From contig NZ_KK853997.1 in NCBI RefSeq assembly GCF_000696185.1, positions 1,465,483 to 1,529,482 on the forward strand: DNA of 64,000 nucleotides, read 5' to 3'. Shown here in pieces: positions 49,253 through 59,496 of this stretch (the first letter of the stretch is position 1; each line of letters opens with the position of its first letter). The position numbers were made by a program, and so were the translations under genes. The stretch is from Kitasatospora cheerisanensis KCTC 2395. GTDB taxonomy: Bacteria > Actinomycetota > Actinomycetes > Streptomycetales > Streptomycetaceae. The notes under the pieces were generated by a model. It saw nothing but the letters and a program-made list of their open reading frames with translations. It was not told where the DNA came from and did no database searches.

Positions 49253-50490
49253 TCAGTCGTGCGGTTCGGCCCAGATCAGCAGGGTGTAGTCGCCGCGCCC
49301 GAAGGAGGGTCCGGCGCCGCTGGTCTGTTCGGCCCGCAGCGGGGCGGACTGGAGCAGCAGGCCGTCGGTGCGGTAGCCGGCGGCGTCGAGGATCTGCCGG
49401 GTCTCACCGGCTTCGGCGAGGCTGCGGGCGACGGCGACGACGCGTTCGGGTTTGCGGGCGACGACGGCTCTGACCATGGCGGGTCCGCCGTGTTCGACGG
49501 CGACGGCGTCGGGTTCGGGGAGGGCGCCGAGGACCTCGGGTCCGGAGCCGGTGGCGGTCTCGATCTCGACGCCGGCCCTGCGGGCGTTGGCGGTGATCCG
49601 GGCGCAGTCGGCGGGTTCGGCTTCGACGGCGACGACGGCGGCGCCGAACCGGGCGGCTTCGACGGCGAGTGCGCCGTCCCCGGCGCCGACGGTCCACAGC
49701 AGGTCGCCGGGGGCGGGTGCGAGGCGGGCCAGCGCCAGCGCGCGGACGTGCGGGGGCAGGGCGCGGGGCGCCGGGTGTCGGCGTCCGCGCCGGCGTACGC
49801 CCGGCTCGGGAGGGCCCAGCCGCGCTGCGCCCCGGGGTGGTCGACGGGTTTGCCGGCCATCCAGCCGGCGGCGGCCTCGGTGGCCGGGACGTTGCCGATG
49901 ACCAGGACGACGGCGGGGTCGCGCCAGTCGTGGTCGGGGACGCGTTCGGAGGTGAGGACGGTGACGTCCTCCTCGGGGGTGCCGAGGGCCTCGCAGACCA
50001 CGAAGGTGCGGGGCACGCCGCGGAGCATCAGGGCGAGTTCGCTGGGGCCGGCGTCGCCGGTGGTGAGGACGGCGACCTTGGGGTGGGCGCGGCAGACGTT
50101 GGCGGCGCGGCGCAGCCGTCCGCCGTGCGCGGAGACCACCTGGGCGTCCTCCCAGGGCATGCCGGCCCGGGCGAAGGCGGCGGCCACCGAGGAGACGGCG
50201 GGCAGCACTTCGAGTTCGAGGCCGTACTCGGGGCGACGCAGGGTGCGCACGACGCCGAAGAATCCGGGGTCGCCCTCGGCGACGACGACGGCGGTGCCGC
50301 GGTGGTCGGCGAGGCGGCGGGCGGCGGCCCGCAGGTCGCCGAGGCCGATGCGTTCGGCGCGTTCGGGGACGGGGAGGGCGGCGAGCTGGTAGCCCGCTCC
50401 GGCGACGAGGGTGGCTGCGGCGAGTGCGCCCGCGGCCGCCTGGGTCAGTGGTGTGCCGTCCCACCCGATGACCGTGATCCGGTCAGCCAT
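49253..50490 (-). pseudogene. cobL: Precorrin-6Y C5,15-methyltransferase (decarboxylating), one frameshift as read
   Basis: CbiE-CbiT fusion of 412 residues once repaired. The N-terminal CbiE-like domain (from ATG 50488-50490: 'ITVIGWDGTPLTQAAAGAL', 'VVVAEGDPGFFGVVRTLRR', 'LPAVSSVAAAFARAG') is in one frame to about 49768. The CbiT-like SAM domain ('GDLLWTVGAGDGALAVEAAR', 'VVAVEAEPADCARI') continues in the next frame to 49253. Adding one base to the G4 run at 49765-49768 gives 413 codons and joins '...RRPRALPPHVRALAL...'. It methylates and decarboxylates precorrin-6Y in aerobic cobalamin synthesis. Upstream partner of cobT on the same strand. Confidence 0.86.
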
Positions 50491-50626
50491 CTGCGGCTGT
50501 TCTCCCTACGCCGTGTTCCGCCCCTGGTGGGTGTGCCGGTGGTGTGCGGTGCCGCCGGCGTTCCCTGGGCAGAGGCTACCGCCTGGCCGGGGTGGTGCGG
50601 AGCAGTGGCGCGCGCCGGGGGCGTGC

Positions 50627-51253
50627 TCAGTGGCGCAGGGCGTGGTGGCGGTCGGCGGGGTGGGCGGGTTCGGGCGGGTCGAGGTCCTCGGGGAGCAGGC
50701 TCCACACGATGAGGTCGGTGTGCTCCTCGGGGCCGGGGCCCCATTCGCCGCCGCGGACGAGGGCGGCGTTGCGCAGGACGCCTTCGCTGATCGCGCCGGT
50801 CTTCTGGGCGACCTGCTGGGCGGCGGTGTTGCCGGCGGCGGTGCGCAGTTCGAGGCGCTGGAAGCCGCGGTCCTCGAACAGCCACTGGGCGGTGCCGAGG
50901 AGGGCCTCGGGGGCGTAGCCCTCGCCGCGGGCCCAGGGGGCGGTGACGTAGCGGACCTCGGTGGCGCGCAACCGCCAGTCGGTGCGGTCGAGTTCGAGGA
51001 GTCCGACCAGGCGCTGGGTGAGGTGTTCGGTGACGGCGAAGACTATGCCTCGTCCGAGCGCGCGCCGTTCGGGGGCCTGACGGCCGATCAGGTCGCGGGC
51101 GTCGGCCTGGGTGTAGGGCCGGGGGTACTCGGTCCAGGTCTGGACGAGTTCGTCGGAGAGCATCGTGGCGAGGCCGGGGGCGTCCTGTTCCTCAAGGGGG
51201 CGCAGCAGCAGCCGTTCGGTGCTGATGGCTGTCTCGGGGAAGTTCGCAACCAT
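50627..51253 (-). CDS. GNAT family N-acetyltransferase (RimJ/RimL-like)
   Basis: 208 residues; RimJ/RimL-type pattern '[21 protein letters not shown]', 'VRYVTAPWARGEGYAPEALLGTAQWLFE', 'LELRTAAGNTAAQQVAQKTG'. The acetyl-CoA loop is WARGEGYA. ATG at 51251-51253 is used because AGGAG is seven bases upstream; longer versions lack this. The Pro/His-rich C-terminus is probably flexible. Substrate unknown. Confidence 0.85.
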   Translation of the reverse strand: MVANFPETAISTERLLLRPLEEQDAPGLATMLSDELVQTWTEYPRPYTQADARDLIGRQAPERRALGRGIVFAVTEHLTQRLVGLLELDRTDWRLRATEVRYVTAPWARGEGYAPEALLGTAQWLFEDRGFQRLELRTAAGNTAAQQVAQKTGAISEGVLRNAALVRGGEWGPGPEEHTDLIVWSLLPEDLDPPEPAHPADRHHALRH

Positions 51254-51346
51254 GCCGTCTCTCCTCGCCGGGTCGTGGACACACCGTACGCCCCGCCCCT
51301 TCGTCGGGCGTGTCAGCGTACCTGTTCCGGACCTCACGGCTCGTCA

Positions 51347-51384
51347 GCACGGTGCCCCCGGAGGGGAGGCCGGGGGCACCGTGC
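51347..51384 (-). terminator. Terminator of metNIQ
   Basis: 15-bp stem (51347-51361 with 51370-51384), 8-base loop, 27 bp beyond the metQ stop. Confidence 0.8.
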
Positions 51385-51410
51385 GGGCCGAGCGTGAGTC
51401 AGCGGGTGGC

Positions 51411-52247
51411 TCAGAACGCGGGGATGACCGCGCCCTGGAAGTTGTCGGTGATGTACTTCTTGACCTCGTCGGAGTGCAGCAGCTCGGCGAGCTTCTTGAC
51501 CCGCGGGTCGCTCTCGTGGCCCTTCTTGACGGCCAGGATGTTGGCGTACGGGTTGCCCTGGGCCTTCTCCAGCACCAGCGCGTCGGTGGCCGGCTTGAGG
51601 TTGGCGCCGAGAGCGTAGTTGCCGTTGATGACGGCGGCGTCGACGTCGTCGAGGGAGCGCGGCAGCTGGGCGGCCTCCAGCTCCTTGAACTTCAGGTGCT
51701 TGGGGTTGGAGGCGATGTCGTCGGCGGTGGCGGTGGTCCCGGCGCCGTCCTTGAGGGTGATGATGTTGTTGTCGGCCAGCAGCTTGAGCGCCCGGCCCTC
51801 GTTGGTGGCGTCGCTGGGGACGGCGATCTGGGCGCCGTCCTTCAGGTCGGCGATGCCCTTGACCTTCTTGGAGTAGACGCCGAGCGGCTCCAGGTGGACG
51901 GCCTCGACGGAGACGATGTCGGTGCCGTTCTTCTTGTTGAAGTCGTCCAGGTAGGGCTGGTGCTGGAAGAAGTTCGCGTCCGCGGATCCGTCCTGGACCG
52001 AGGTGTTGGGGGTCACGTAGTCGCTGACCTCCTTGACGTCCAGCTTGAGGCCGGCCTTCTCCGCCAGGTTGTCCTGCACGAACTTGAGGATCTGCGCGTG
52101 CGGGGTGGCGCTGGCCGCGATCACCAGGGGCTTGTTGGGGTCGGCCTGGGCGGCGGAGTCGGAGCTGCCGCTGGAGCAGGCGGTGAGGCCTATGACGAGG
52201 CCGGCGGCGGTGGCGGTCAGGACGGTGGTCTTCAGAACGTTACGCAC
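51411..52247 (-). CDS. metQ: Methionine ABC transporter substrate-binding lipoprotein MetQ
   Basis: 278-residue NlpA/MetQ lipoprotein. Signal peptide with lipobox 'LTAC' (acylated C24), Ser/Gly linker, then the MetQ domain: 'VTPNTSVQDGSADANFFQHQPYLDDFN', 'GIADLKDGAQIAVPSDATNEGRALKLL', 'VINGNYALGANL'. Binds methionine (or its sulfoxide) outside the membrane and delivers it to MetNI. GTG start at 52245-52247. Last gene of the operon, 70 bp after metI. Confidence 0.95.
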   Translation of the reverse strand: MRNVLKTTVLTATAAGLVIGLTACSSGSSDSAAQADPNKPLVIAASATPHAQILKFVQDNLAEKAGLKLDVKEVSDYVTPNTSVQDGSADANFFQHQPYLDDFNKKNGTDIVSVEAVHLEPLGVYSKKVKGIADLKDGAQIAVPSDATNEGRALKLLADNNIITLKDGAGTTATADDIASNPKHLKFKELEAAQLPRSLDDVDAAVINGNYALGANLKPATDALVLEKAQGNPYANILAVKKGHESDPRVKKLAELLHSDEVKKYITDNFQGAVIPAF

Positions 52248-52317
52248 GAAAAGTGCCTTTCTGCGGGGTGCGAACGGCCCTGTCGGGCCGGGAGCCGCTC
52301 CGGTGGGGAGCGGTGGT

Positions 52318-53064
52318 TCAGTGCGAGGACGCGAGGTCCTCGTCGATCTCCTCGGCGCGCGGCGCGGCGTTCGCGGAGCGGAAGAAGCTCAGCGGGCTGC
52401 GGTAGTTGCCGCGGTGGGAGAGTCGGCGGGCGATCTGGTCGCCGAGCAGTTGCAGCGCGGTGACGATGATCACGAGTTCGGCGACGATGACCCACATGAA
52501 GGTGGTCTCGAAGCGCTGGTAGCCGTAGCGGATGGCGAGGTCGCCGAGGCCGCCGCCGCCGACCGTGCCGGCCATGGTGGAGTAGCCGATCAGCGCGATC
52601 AGGGTGGTGGTGACGGCGGAGACCAGCGACGGCAGGGTCTCCGGCAGCAGGGTCTTGCGGACGATGGTGCCGGTGCCGGCGCCCATCGCCTTGAGCGCCT
52701 CGATCAGTCCGCCGTCGACCTCGCGGAGCGAGGTCTCGACCAGGCGGGCGAAGAACGGGATGGCGCCGATGGCGAGCGGGACGCTGGCGGCCTGCCAGCC
52801 GAGCGAGGTGCCGGTGAGCGCCTTGGTGAAGGGGATCACCGCGACGATCAGGATGATGAACGGGATGGAGCGTCCGACGTTGACGATCACCCCGAGCACC
52901 CGGCTGACGGCCAGGTTCTGCAGCAGGCCGCCCTTGTCGGTGAGCACCAGCAGCAGTCCGAGCGGCAGGCCGATCACCAGGGTGGCCAGGCCGGCGATGC
53001 CGACCATGCCGAGGGTCTCCCAGGTGGCGGGCCACATGAGTTCCTGCATCCGGTCCCAGGTCAT
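52318..53064 (-). CDS. metI: Methionine ABC transporter permease MetI
   Basis: 248 residues, five to six membrane helices, with the MetI/NlpA-type start 'TWDRMQELMWPATWETLGMVGIAGLATLVIGLPLG' and the EAA-type loop 'EALKAMGAGTGTIVRKTLLPETLPSL' that contacts MetN. ATG 53062-53064 overlaps the metN stop (ATGA). The last ~25 residues are a hydrophilic tail. Confidence 0.95.
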   Translation of the reverse strand: MTWDRMQELMWPATWETLGMVGIAGLATLVIGLPLGLLLVLTDKGGLLQNLAVSRVLGVIVNVGRSIPFIILIVAVIPFTKALTGTSLGWQAASVPLAIGAIPFFARLVETSLREVDGGLIEALKAMGAGTGTIVRKTLLPETLPSLVSAVTTTLIALIGYSTMAGTVGGGGLGDLAIRYGYQRFETTFMWVIVAELVIIVTALQLLGDQIARRLSHRGNYRSPLSFFRSANAAPRAEEIDEDLASSH

Positions 53065-54086
53065 GCCGCCGCTCCGTTCGACAGGTCGAGGACGTCCACC
53101 TGGAGTCCCTGTTGGCGCAGGTAGCCGATCGGCACCACGTTGTCGGTGTGGCTGCCGGGCAGTTCGACCCGCATCCGGCCGACCAGGCGGCCGGCGATGG
53201 TCTCCGCGGCGGCGCCGAGGATGTTGATGTCGATCTGGTAGGTGCGGGCCAGCTGGGAGACGAACGGCTGGGCGGGCGCGTCGCCCTGGAAGGTGATCTC
53301 CAGGACGGTGCGGTCCTCGCGGCCGGTGCCGAAGTCGCCGAGCGGGAACAGGTCGCGGGCGATCTGCGAGCGGCCGTCGGCGAGCAGGTCGGTGAGCTGC
53401 CCGGTCTCGACGACCTTGCCGCCGCGCATCAGCGCCGCGGAGTCGCAGACCGACTTGATGACGTCCATCTCGTGGGTGATCAGCAGCACGGTGAGGCCGA
53501 GCTGCTGGTTGAGCTCGCGCAGCAGCTTGAGGACGGAGCGGGTGGTCTCCGGGTCGAGGGCGCTGGTGGCCTCGTCGGAGAGCAGCACCTTGGGGTCGCC
53601 GGCCAGGGCGCGGGCGATGCCGACGCGCTGCTTCTGGCCGCCGGACAGCTGGCTCGGGTAGCTGCGGGCCTTGTCGGCGAGGCCGACCAGGTCGAGCAGT
53701 TCGGCGGCCTTGCGGCGGCGGTCGTGCCGGTCGAGGCCGATGATCTCCAGCGGCAGTTCGACGTTCTGCTGCACGGTGCGCGAGGACAGCAGGTTGAAGT
53801 GCTGAAACACCATGCCGATCCGGCGGCGGGCCTCGCGGAGTTCGCGGCCGGCCCGCTGCTCGCTGCCGGCCAGCGCGGTCAGTTCGACGCCGTCGACGGT
53901 GACGGTGCCGGCGGTGGGCCGCTCCAGCAGGTTGACGCACCGGATGAGGGTGGACTTGCCGGCGCCGCTGGTGCCGACGACCCCGAACACCTCGCCCTGC
54001 CGCACGTGCAGGTCGACGTCGTCCAGTGCCACGACGTCGCGGCCCCGGGAACGGTAGACCTTGGTCAGGCCCTTGGTGGTGATCAC
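53061..54086 (-). CDS. metN: Methionine ABC transporter ATP-binding protein MetN
   Basis: 341-residue ATPase. Walker A 'GTSGAGKST', Q-loop 'FQHFNLL', signature 'QLSGGQKQRVGIARAL', Walker B 'LLSDEATSALD', H-loop 'LLITHEMD'. The C-terminal ~90 residues form the NIL/ACT-like domain ('PFVSQLARTYQIDINILGAAAETI') that binds methionine and inhibits transport. I use GTG 54084-54086 ('ITTKGLTKVY'); an ATG 11 codons upstream (54119) is possible. Preceded by a leader with a Met/Cys-rich peptide. Confidence 0.94.
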   Translation of the reverse strand: MITTKGLTKVYRSRGRDVVALDDVDLHVRQGEVFGVVGTSGAGKSTLIRCVNLLERPTAGTVTVDGVELTALAGSEQRAGRELREARRRIGMVFQHFNLLSSRTVQQNVELPLEIIGLDRHDRRRKAAELLDLVGLADKARSYPSQLSGGQKQRVGIARALAGDPKVLLSDEATSALDPETTRSVLKLLRELNQQLGLTVLLITHEMDVIKSVCDSAALMRGGKVVETGQLTDLLADGRSQIARDLFPLGDFGTGREDRTVLEITFQGDAPAQPFVSQLARTYQIDINILGAAAETIAGRLVGRMRVELPGSHTDNVVPIGYLRQQGLQVDVLDLSNGAAA

Positions 54087-54294
54087 AGCTGCTTCCGTTG
54101 TTCGTCGGCGGATGGTCATCGGCGGACTGCCACGGGGGCGTGCGCCAATGGCTGGGGACGGCACCTGGTGCCGGGAGGAAGAGTGGGTGCTGCCGTCGTG
54201 TCGATCATGGCCGCCGGTCGGACGGGCCGCGCGGGGGCGTGGCCCTAACGAGTCATCGGCGGACGGGACGTCAGCGGGTGCTGGGCGAAGGCTC

Positions 54295-54321
54295 TCAGCG
54301 ACAACACATTCGACGGCACAT
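54295..54321 (-). CDS. Putative Met/Cys leader peptide upstream of metNIQ
   Basis: Eight codons reading M-C-R-R-M-C-C-R then TGA. AGGTGA, the exact complement of the 16S rRNA 3' end, lies seven bases before the ATG, so translation is very likely. Three of eight residues are Cys and two Met. The same frame is open upstream to an ATG at 54378 (27 residues in all, starting MTTTTTC), but that start has no Shine-Dalgarno. The stop lies 208 bp before metN with no other gene between. A role in ribosome-mediated attenuation by Cys or Met supply is inferred; it is too short for ordinary gene finders. Confidence 0.6.
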   Translation of the reverse strand: MCRRMCCR

Positions 54322-54467
54322 GCGTCGCTCACCTGCCGGCGTCGCGCCGGTGGGGATGCATGTCGTCGTCGTGGTCATGAACCCAGTAAATCAGACAATT
54401 GGTCCACGTCCCAATGCTCAGGACCTTCCGTCCGACATGCGGACACGACCCTTGCGGGACAAGGCAG

Positions 54468-54500
54468 CGGCGCCCCGCCTGTGGTCCGGGCGGGGCGCCG
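54468..54500 (-). terminator. Terminator after the GNAT gene at 54512
   Basis: 12-bp GC stem (54468-54479 with 54489-54500) and 9-base loop, 12 bp beyond the stop codon. It separates that gene from the metN leader, so metNIQ needs its own promoter between about 54380 and 54460. Confidence 0.75.
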
Positions 54501-54511
54501 CAAGGGGTGGT

Positions 54512-55006
54512 TCAGGCCGCCAGGGAGGTCTCCCCCGGCTTGGCCAGGGTGACGATCGACATCCGACGGGAGACCTCGCGCACCTCGGTCTCGCGGTAGC
54601 CGAGACGGCGGTACAGCCGCAGGTTGCCCAGGCTGCGGTGGCCGGTGAACAGCCGGTAGCCGCCGCTCGCGCCGTCCTCGGCGAGTTGCGCCTCCAGCGC
54701 GGTCAGCAGCCGGCGGCCCAGGCCGTGCCGCTGCATCCGGGGGTGCACCACCAGGCGGCCGATCCGGCCGACACCGTCCTCGTCGACCCAGCCGCGCACC
54801 GTGCCGACCACCTCGTCGCCCAGGCGGGCCACCAGCACGCGGTGCTCGGCGAGTTCGGCCTTGAGGCTCTCCAGGGTCTGGGTCAGCGGTGCGAGGTTCC
54901 AGTCGCTGTACAGCTCCGCCTCGCTCTGGTAGCCGAGGTACTGGAGCTTGAGGATCTGCTCCGCTTCATCAGGTCGTGCCGCTGCGATGATCACACTCAT
55001 GCCCAT
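54512..55006 (-). CDS. GNAT family N-acetyltransferase
   Basis: 164 residues, one GNAT domain: 'AEQILKLQYLGYQSEAELY', 'VARLGDEVVGTVRGW', and the acetyl-CoA loop in 'IGRLVVHPRMQRHGLGRRLL' (Q-R-x-G-x-G), then 'GHRSLGNLRLYRRLGYRE'. The first ATG (55004-55006) has GGAGG nine bases upstream; a second ATG is two codons in. Substrate unknown. Confidence 0.87.
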   Translation of the reverse strand: MGMSVIIAAARPDEAEQILKLQYLGYQSEAELYSDWNLAPLTQTLESLKAELAEHRVLVARLGDEVVGTVRGWVDEDGVGRIGRLVVHPRMQRHGLGRRLLTALEAQLAEDGASGGYRLFTGHRSLGNLRLYRRLGYRETEVREVSRRMSIVTLAKPGETSLAA

Positions 55007-55166
55007 GTGCGGGGGCCTCCATCGTCAATCGCCCGGCGCGCACGAGTGAGGGTCTGGCACCGGCCTTGTCCGAGGTGTGCCCGGACGGGGATCGGCCCGG
55101 CCCGGGAAAAGCGCGACACGTCCCGCCGGACGGTGGCCCGGTCACGGAACTGGCGCGCTCACGCTC

Positions 55167-55194
55167 AGTATCCGGACGGCCGGACGACCGTCAA
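55167..55194 (-). promoter_or_regulatory. Vegetative-type promoter of the GNAT gene
   Basis: On the minus strand TTGACG (55189-55194) and GATACT (55167-55172) are separated by 16 bases, a good HrdB-type match. Transcription would start near 55160, giving a leader of about 150 nt. Confidence 0.6.
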
Positions 55195-55266
55195 GAGAGA
55201 CGTTCGCCACCGCTCTACCCAGCCGATGGCTGTTCTCAACCTTCCGGACGCCCGACGTGGCGAGCG

Positions 55267-56658
55267 TCACGCGCCGCCCGCCGGCCCGTCCCGCCGCCCG
55301 CTCGGACGGATGTTCTGGTTCACCCGGAACAGGTTCCCCGGGTCGTAGCGGTCCTTCAGCGCCACCAGCCGCTCGTACTTCGCCAGCCCGTACGCCTCCA
55401 CCACCCGGCCCTGCCCCTCCAGGCCCATCAGGTTGACGCAGCCGCCGCCCGAGGAGAACGGCCGCATCGCCTCCCAGCACCGCCGCACCCACGCCACCTG
55501 CGGCTCCGCCGGCCCGGTGCTCCACCGGCCCACCGCGCTCAGCAGGTACGGGGCCTGCCGGTAGGTGTACGCGCTGTCCTCCGCGCCCACCCGGGCCACC
55601 GCGCCGCCCAGGAACGCCAGTTGCGCGTGCGCGTCCGGCGACGGCAGGGCGGCGACCTGCTCCGCCAGGCAGTCGATCGCCGCGCCGTCCAGCACCGACA
55701 GGAACTCCGAACGCCCGAACACGGCCGCGCCCGGCCCCCGGCCCTCGTCCTGCATCCGCTGCCAGAGCGGGTACGGGCGGGTCTGCACGGTGTCCGCGAG
55801 CACGCCCGGCAGGGCGCGCAGCGGGGCGATCACCTCCCGGCCGCGGTCGGCCCGGCCGGCCCAGCACAGGCCGATCCGCACCGCCGTCGCCGCCGGCAGC
55901 TGCGGCATCCCGCGCGGCGCGCCGAACTCGCAGCACACCGTGAGCCCGTCCGGGGCGTGCGCCATGAAGTCCCGCACCGCGGCCAGCGTCGGCGCCAGCC
56001 GCTCCCCCGGCAGGTACAGCGCCCCGCACAGCAGGTGCGCGCCCACCCGGTGCAGCCGGTACGTGAAGGAGGTGACCACCCCGAAGTTGCCGCCGCCGCC
56101 GCGCAGCCCCGCGAACAGCTCCGGGTGCGAGGCCGCACTCGCCGTCAGCAGCCGCCCCTCGGCCGTCACCACGTCGGCCTCCACCAGGTTGTCGCAGGTC
56201 AGCCCGTACGCGCGGGACAGCCAGCCGCTGCCGCCGCCGAGCGTGGTGCCCGCGATGCCCGCCGCCGAGTACGGCGCGCCGGGCGTCGCCAGCCCGAAGG
56301 CCTGCGTCTCGTGGTCGAAGCCGCCCCAGGTCGCGCCCGGCTGCGCCCGGGCGGTGCGGCGCTCCGGGTCCACCCGGACGCCGGTGAGGCCGGACAGGTC
56401 GATCAGCATCGCGCCCTCGCCGGTGCCCAGGCCCGCCAGGCTGTGCCCCGCGCCGCGCACCGCGACGGGCAGGCCGTGCTCGCGGGCCACCGCCACCGCC
56501 TGCAGCACGTCGGCGACGCCGGTGCAGCGGGCGATCACCTCGGGCCGCCGGTCCACCGCCGCGTTCCACACCCCCCGCGCCCGGTCGTACCCCTCGTCCC
56601 CGGGCAGCACGATCTCACCCCGGAACCCCTCGGCAAGCGCCACGGCTGCGTCGGCCAT
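55267..56658 (-). CDS. FAD-binding PCMH-type oxidoreductase (BBE family)
   Basis: 463-residue flavoprotein oxidase. The PCMH FAD domain has 'VRGAGHSLAG' with H72, the usual site of 8-alpha histidyl attachment of FAD, and 'GTTLGGGSGWLSRAYGLTCDNLVEADVVT'. The C-terminal BBE segment ends 'YERLVALKDRYDPGNLFRVNQNI'. The cysteine that makes a second FAD bond in bicovalent members (in a G-x-C-P-T-V-type loop before the Gly triplet) is replaced by 'YSAAGIAG'. No Tat or Sec signal is visible. The substrate cannot be predicted; not part of an operon. Start ATG at 56656-56658. Confidence 0.87.
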   Translation of the reverse strand: MADAAVALAEGFRGEIVLPGDEGYDRARGVWNAAVDRRPEVIARCTGVADVLQAVAVAREHGLPVAVRGAGHSLAGLGTGEGAMLIDLSGLTGVRVDPERRTARAQPGATWGGFDHETQAFGLATPGAPYSAAGIAGTTLGGGSGWLSRAYGLTCDNLVEADVVTAEGRLLTASAASHPELFAGLRGGGGNFGVVTSFTYRLHRVGAHLLCGALYLPGERLAPTLAAVRDFMAHAPDGLTVCCEFGAPRGMPQLPAATAVRIGLCWAGRADRGREVIAPLRALPGVLADTVQTRPYPLWQRMQDEGRGPGAAVFGRSEFLSVLDGAAIDCLAEQVAALPSPDAHAQLAFLGGAVARVGAEDSAYTYRQAPYLLSAVGRWSTGPAEPQVAWVRRCWEAMRPFSSGGGCVNLMGLEGQGRVVEAYGLAKYERLVALKDRYDPGNLFRVNQNIRPSGRRDGPAGGA

Positions 56659-56762
56659 GGATCCAGCGTAGGCGGGGTGCCCGCCCCCCGCTCCGCCGGA
56701 ACCGGGTGCCCGGGTGACGTGCCGCACGCCGCGGGCGCGCTCGCCCGGGCCGCAACGGCGGC

Positions 56763-56789
56763 GGGGCCGGACGGTCTCCGTCCGGCCCC
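56763..56789 (-). terminator. Terminator of argH
   Basis: 12-bp GC stem (56763-56774 with 56778-56789) and TCT loop, 15 bp beyond the argH stop. Confidence 0.7.
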
Positions 56790-56804
56790 GGCTCGCGTCG
56801 GTGG

Positions 56805-59496
<2,692 letters not shown>

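Follow-up and report, generated by a model that had tools for sequence, protein, structure and literature searches.

The metNIQ operon of Kitasatospora cheerisanensis KCTC 2395 is preceded by a short reading frame with a Met- and Cys-rich end, which is probably (at roughly 80%) part of a ribosome-read attenuator that senses the charging state of Cys-tRNA, Met-tRNA or both. A leader upstream of metNIQ is already known in Streptomyces lividans; what is new here is the breadth of its conservation, the mixed Cys/Met signature, the core with its rare CGA codon and a hairpin specific to metN leaders. Comparison of the leaders supports a leader peptide in which selection maintains the frame, the start, the Met and Cys codons, the stop and the location upstream of metN while the remainder drifts.

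The window, a stretch of 64,000 nucleotides from this genome, carries the leader and the three genes of the operon on its minus strand (Table 1). An earlier note had pointed to an eight-codon frame with AGGTGA seven bases upstream and sulfur amino acids at five of its eight codons, and all of this is confirmed: positions 54321-54295 of the minus strand read ATG TGC CGT CGA ATG TGT TGT CGC TGA, which encodes MCRRMCCR and a stop. The same frame stays open back to an ATG at 54378. A leader of at least 200 nt before metN had also been claimed; the distance from the stop of the leader ORF to the GTG of metN (54086) is 208 nt, the metN leader as a whole is 292 nt long, and the identity of MetN is backed by its two Pfam domains. 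With codon frequencies taken from 45 gene-like ORFs in the window that were picked by GC3 (Cys 1.1%, Met 1.6%), the chance of finding at least four Met or Cys codons among the seven internal codons is about 1.7e-5 per place. The Met/Cys-rich frame before metN is correct as observed and far from chance. CGA makes up 2.3% of the Arg codons and TGT 7.3% of the Cys codons in the same ORFs, so the core is enriched in rare codons.

Upstream of the leader, position 54512 marks the end of a GNAT gene in the same orientation. A GC-rich inverted repeat, GGCGCCCCGCC...GGCGGGGCGCC (minus strand, 54499-54469), lies between this gene and the metN leader and is likely the terminator of the GNAT gene. The gene end and the repeat together indicate that the metN leader is likely transcribed separately.

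Table 1. Features of the metN leader and the metNIQ operon in the window
Feature	Position	Strand	Remarks
Leader peptide ORF (metL type)	54295..54378	minus	27 codons, MTTTTTCIPTGATPAGERRMCRRMCCR and stop; homologous frame in genus and family
Met/Cys core and stop	54295..54321	minus	MCRRMCCR and stop; CGA ATG TGT at 54312-54304
metN	53061..54086	minus	GTG start; Pfam ABC_tran and NIL domains
metI	52318..53061	minus	Frame end 52318, start approximate; Pfam BPD_transp_1
metQ	51411..52247	minus	Pfam NlpA lipoprotein
Candidate metN ribosome-binding site CGGAAG	54092..54097	minus	Sequence reading
AGGTGA, SD-like	54329..54334	minus	7 bases 5' of inner ATG; sequence reading
Inverted repeat CCGGCG-CGA-CGCCGG within leader ORF	54336..54350	minus	Sequence reading
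Extended -10 element TCTGATTTACT	54385..54395	minus	6 nt 5' of ATG 54378; exact in 113 of 130 leaders
Candidate -35 TTGGGA	54409..54414	minus	18 nt 5' of TTTACT; weak, from sequence reading and likeness among genus loci
Genus-specific element TGACTCGTTAGGGCCACGCC	54236..54255	minus	Distance to metN almost constant; 69 of 70 genomes with no more than one match

The leader is conserved throughout the genus of the window and the rest of its family. A DNA search matched it in 65 of 70 genus genomes, and each of the 65 matched loci holds an in-frame ORF, 27-35 codons long, whose end contains Met/Cys; metN is present in 64 of these loci, while L041 stops short of metN. The ORF is also present in L078, L081 and L082, from genus genomes that gave no DNA match, and the total comes to 67 genus leaders. 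In another genus genome without a DNA match (G005), MetN itself gave no match at E 1e-60, and the remaining one (G040) was left out of the leader count. Conservation of the small frame and its Met and Cys codons, put forward in the earlier note as a check, is borne out, the frame being kept upstream of metN in all 67 genus leaders with Met and Cys retained. It is likewise found in 70 of 71 upstream regions from other genera of the family; this sample covers all 71 full-length MetN matches, with one fragmentary match (G089) left out, and three of the first 63 ORFs in it were placed by eye. Six of six named Streptomyces loci have the leader ORF, which was recognised in L263 by reading and not by pattern, and no such leader was found upstream of metN in the Actinoplanes locus L249. 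L368 (G111) retains only the core RMCRMCA and its stop upstream of metN, with the promoter and the 5', N-terminal part replaced; it may be a case of natural loss or an assembly join. Five weak secondary DNA matches (L066-L070) were inspected for leader paralogues and none contains the leader, and a megablast search of the leader against plasmids gave no match.

The core is best described from an alignment of 130 leaders, 67 from the genus and 63 from the rest of the family. As expected of ribosome-mediated attenuators, the codons for the relevant amino acids cluster near the end of the short ORF: both Met and Cys occur within the last 14 residues of all 130 peptides, with at least two Cys there in 127. 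The core Met is kept in every leader, its preceding codon is CGA in 125, and it is followed by Cys in 121 leaders and by Arg in 9. In 129 of the 130 a further Cys is found at most 12 residues ahead of the core. The longest contiguous Cys run is one residue in 94 leaders, two in 34 and three in 2, the window leader having a run of two. The CGA of the core is presumably a slow codon.

These features can be combined, tentatively, into a dual-codon sensor, in which a shortage of either Cys-tRNA or Met-tRNA would halt the ribosome at one and the same core, tuned by CGA. Such a sensor would have been kept across two actinobacterial families, would let a single leader register the overall state of the sulfur amino acids and would drive methionine import, with the GCCCCGAA-loop hairpin as its output arm in many genera and another arm in the clade of the window. 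It is somewhat doubtful that cysteine alone is sensed, as in mycobacteria, and that retention of the Met codons has a different cause, for instance the nucleotide context CGAATG. The near-constant Cys before the core, the occurrence of Cys among the final 14 residues of every one of the 130 peptides, the substitution of the first core Met in many other genera and a second Cys-coding leader upstream of sulfite reductase in the same genome would all fit the sensing of cysteine, but the core Met is retained without exception and Met recurs outside the family.

Beyond the family, 41 metN upstream regions were compared (40 from family f17 and 1 from f3, made up of 14 loci of 18 places and 27 of 56), the strand of each locus being set by tblastn. 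ORFs whose final 14 residues hold three or more Met/Cys, Cys among them, a criterion that does not require Met, occur on the metN strand in 24 of the 41 regions as against 1 of 41 on the opposite strand; by this criterion 17 of the 41 regions have no leader. An end of the form RMC-x(0-3)-stop is present on the metN strand in 10 of the 41 and on the opposite strand in none. Although Met was not demanded, all 26 Met/Cys-rich ORFs found outside the family hold Met as well as Cys (L176, for example, ends in VMCRGTRMCGTARMCAMGGMPSMR), which argues against cysteine as the only signal. The best evidence that both amino acids may matter is that both persist while the out-of-family sequence turns over. 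The promoter element accompanies only L323 and L327 among these 41 regions. Four f17 leaders (L176, L177, L342 and L345) have R-M-C units and an AMGGMPSMR end, unlike the streptomycete type.

It is unlikely that methionine is the sole signal, which is how Droste et al. read the S. lividans leader metL (PMC8079986). The downstream genes do import methionine and the core Met is invariant, in keeping with that published reading, yet Cys is conserved about as strongly, both directly after the core Met and near the end of the peptide.

It is improbable that conservation acts on an RNA or DNA element, such as a riboswitch or a protein site, with the ORF incidental to it. The distance from the ATG to the core takes 11 values, every one of them divisible by three, so the frame is preserved through 11 length classes, and Met and Cys codons recur in the divergent sequences of another family. 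By contrast, 89 lengths from stop to metN, between 96 and 359 nt, are spread 31/28/30 over the three classes of length modulo three. No Rfam family is matched at its gathering score in the window (50000-58000), nor is there a match in four hairpin-bearing relatives; a hit to P11 on the opposite strand (E 0.33, 20.6 bits versus a gathering score of 70) was taken as chance. What speaks for an element of this kind is the fixation of CGA beyond amino-acid need, the ratio of amino-acid-changing to silent substitutions over the whole ORF, which is near chance (2.35 versus 2.93 expected in the genus, 5.17 versus 4.05 in genus g10), and the hairpin downstream.

This hairpin, CTCGC-GCCCCGAA-GCGAG or a close variant, is present in 80 of the 130 leaders. 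Leaders of many genera carry it, for example L099, L114, L320 and L323, the last with a variant stem. Judged by pattern searches, the hairpin with the GCCCCGAA loop is specific to metN leaders: the pattern CKCGCGCCCCGAAGCGMG occurs in 28 of 61 family genomes with one match each, 27 of the 28 are the exact hairpin, and each of these 27 lies some hundreds of nt 5' of the place of MetN. The stem CTCAC...GTGAG of L323 and L327 is a compensatory change and CCCGC...GCGGG in the g10 leader L118 is another; one leader breaks a pair. The hairpin also occurs in 5 of the 41 out-of-family regions (f17), and a joint core-to-hairpin pattern is found once each in 29 of 394 class genomes, 28 of one genus and 1 of f17. 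Since the window and 29 other genus leaders are without the hairpin, it is not required. The genus has an element of its own (Table 1), and TGACNCGTNNGRGY lies 132-180 nt before metN in 41 of the 67 genus leaders and in none of the 63 from elsewhere.

The start of the ORF is marked by its promoter. TCTGNTTTACT is exact in 113 of the 130 leaders, each time 6-7 nt 5' of the outer ATG, and variants are present in the other 17, so that the outer ATG with an exact or variant -10 element is found in all 130. The mean distance from -10 element to transcription start in S. lividans is given as 6.3 nt (PMC8079986), and with the element 6 nt before the ATG a leaderless mRNA is therefore predicted; the ORF from ATG 54378 is probably leaderless, like its reported S. 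lividans homologue. A generic consensus promoter scan called no promoter at the leader. The 27-residue product from 54378, which the earlier note had given only as an alternative, fits the conserved outer ATG and -10 element, and the eight-codon SD-led frame finds no support as the unit. That ribosomes translate this frame from 54321 is highly improbable, even though AGGTGA is well spaced and 61 of 67 genus leaders and 39 of 63 others have a loosely SD-like motif ahead of the inner Met-Cys. Of the 66 genus leaders with an upstream Cys, 61 have Met immediately in front of it, compared with only 39 of the 63 other leaders, so the inner ATG is not general, whereas the outer one is. Additional initiation may occur at the inner Met-Cys; the outer and inner starts lie in one frame. 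A functional micropeptide working in trans is very improbable, as the ORF is conserved but its N-terminal sequence turns over from genus to genus and its amino-acid changes are near chance.

In the ribosome-read attenuator favoured here, transcription would probably start at the AUG of the leader itself, and ribosomes would thus load on the 5' end of the metNIQ mRNA. A ribosome approaching the stop would meet Cys and Met codons, and directly before Met-Cys it would have to read CGA, a rare codon for Arg. If charged Cys-tRNA, Met-tRNA or both were scarce, the ribosome would halt at the core, and its position would alter how the downstream leader folds or how accessible it is; metNIQ expression would then rise and methionine would be brought in. 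We infer translation of the leader in K. cheerisanensis, the stalling and the downstream step from the conserved features.

As the output, relief of occlusion of the metN ribosome-binding site appears slightly favoured over termination of the Rho type within the C-rich spacer. The available text of two papers (PMC9031893, PMC13236596) reports such relief by a stalled ribosome for cysteine leaders of mycobacteria, and Rho has been suggested for mycobacterial cys operons (PMC1262725). Over the 130 leaders the spacer has a C content of 0.47 and a G content of 0.30, which suits Rho sites but is no test of Rho, and no intrinsic terminator follows the leader ORF, the single predicted site falling within it; Rho therefore stays a candidate. 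No alternative fold of the leader is backed by covariation, and five pairs of the inverted repeat within the ORF are unchanging across the 67 genus leaders, hence without covariation. Pairing of the core with the ribosome-binding site outdoes other leader segments only in some genera, 20% of the other segments being at least as strong in g10 and 60% in the window's genus. This pairing, attractive in g10 (UGUCGA with UCGACA), was not retained, as TGT-to-TGC changes are uncompensated by reading and 60% of the other segments in the window's genus do equally well or better. With the core masked, the metN start opens more easily, by 0.24 kcal/mol in the window, by a mean of 1.4 in 25 genus leaders (0.3 for other masks) and by 0.4 in 12 g10 leaders; 31-35% of other masks match the effect, in a weak test that covers 39 of 85 leaders. 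Re-initiation from the leader gene was also rejected, the reported peak being at 10-11 bp (PMC4833913) versus 208 nt here. In S. coelicolor, metNIQ rises alongside the cysteine-synthesis genes under oxidative stress, which fits the proposed sensor physiologically; the authors of that study tie this co-induction to the HbpS-SenS-SenR system, and a predicted SenR site 5' of metN is an alternative cause (PMC4991794).

The closest known system is metL (SLIV_29928) of S. lividans TK24, with the peptide MSTTSDRTPATEATTTPGARCMCRRMCAF, a leaderless ORF 5' of metNIQ listed in Table 4 of Droste et al. (2021) as a methionine-dependent attenuator; the available text notes methionines and threonines and makes no mention of Cys codons (PMC8079986). 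Like metL, the window leader is a small ORF on the metNIQ strand directly 5' of metN, has an M-C-R(-R)-M-C core near its stop (metL has 29 residues and ends in CMCRRMCAF) and has no typical Rho-independent terminator. Unlike metL, it has a different N-terminus and is without the downstream hairpin. metL was read as Met-dependent in one species, whereas Cys is about as conserved as Met in the leaders compared here. The earlier claim that such a leader is not described stands in part: a methionine-dependent attenuator at this place is in print, but the mixed Cys/Met signature is absent from the available text of that paper (PMC8079986). The literature searched, with subscription papers mostly outside it, gave no further description recognised as the metN leader. 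No Pfam model matches the leader peptide.

Polycysteine leaderless short ORFs of mycobacteria were reportedly described by Canestrari et al. in 2020. In the available text of two papers, such ORFs precede sulfur genes and act by translational attenuation (PMC9031893, PMC13236596). The metN leader is likewise a probably leaderless short ORF with Cys codons before sulfur-related genes, but the mycobacterial leaders have contiguous Cys and precede cysteine genes, whereas the leaders compared here mix Met with Cys, have Cys runs of one to three residues and precede genes for a methionine importer. NCBIfam, including NF042936 (the Ms4527A family), gave no match to the metN leader at E up to 10, a search in which weak matches are lost to the HMMER filters. 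A small leader ORF is likewise described by NCBIfam NF042934, 'putative leader peptide' (cis_reg_atten), but the metN leader does not match it. In the LEU element, or leuA leader, of Actinobacteria, leader codons for leucine are proposed to pair with the ribosome-binding site of the next gene (Seliverstov et al., 2005, PMC1262725); unlike there, the matching core-to-RBS pairing is unsupported across genera here.

Elsewhere in the K. cheerisanensis genome (L223:691-774, contig C1 near 2,094,000), a leader ORF encoding MSSAGTTLVGRLHVDLLRVSSAICPVT precedes a sulfite reductase gene and matches NF042934 above its cut-off. It is a second Cys-coding leader of a sulfur gene in this organism, unrelated to the metN leader. 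Among 14 loci of the PALP family (cysteine-synthase-like) in this genome there is one CC ending (L237), and none has a leader of the HVDL or MC type.

The leader before metNIQ thus goes from one table line on a single Streptomyces species to a widely conserved element whose exact codons are defined. Should both codons matter, a single leader would couple the supply of cysteine and methionine, a coupling that, to our knowledge, is found in no described leader peptide. With a second Cys-coding leader before sulfite reductase, streptomycetes may have a set of cysteine-responsive leaders comparable to the mycobacterial one.
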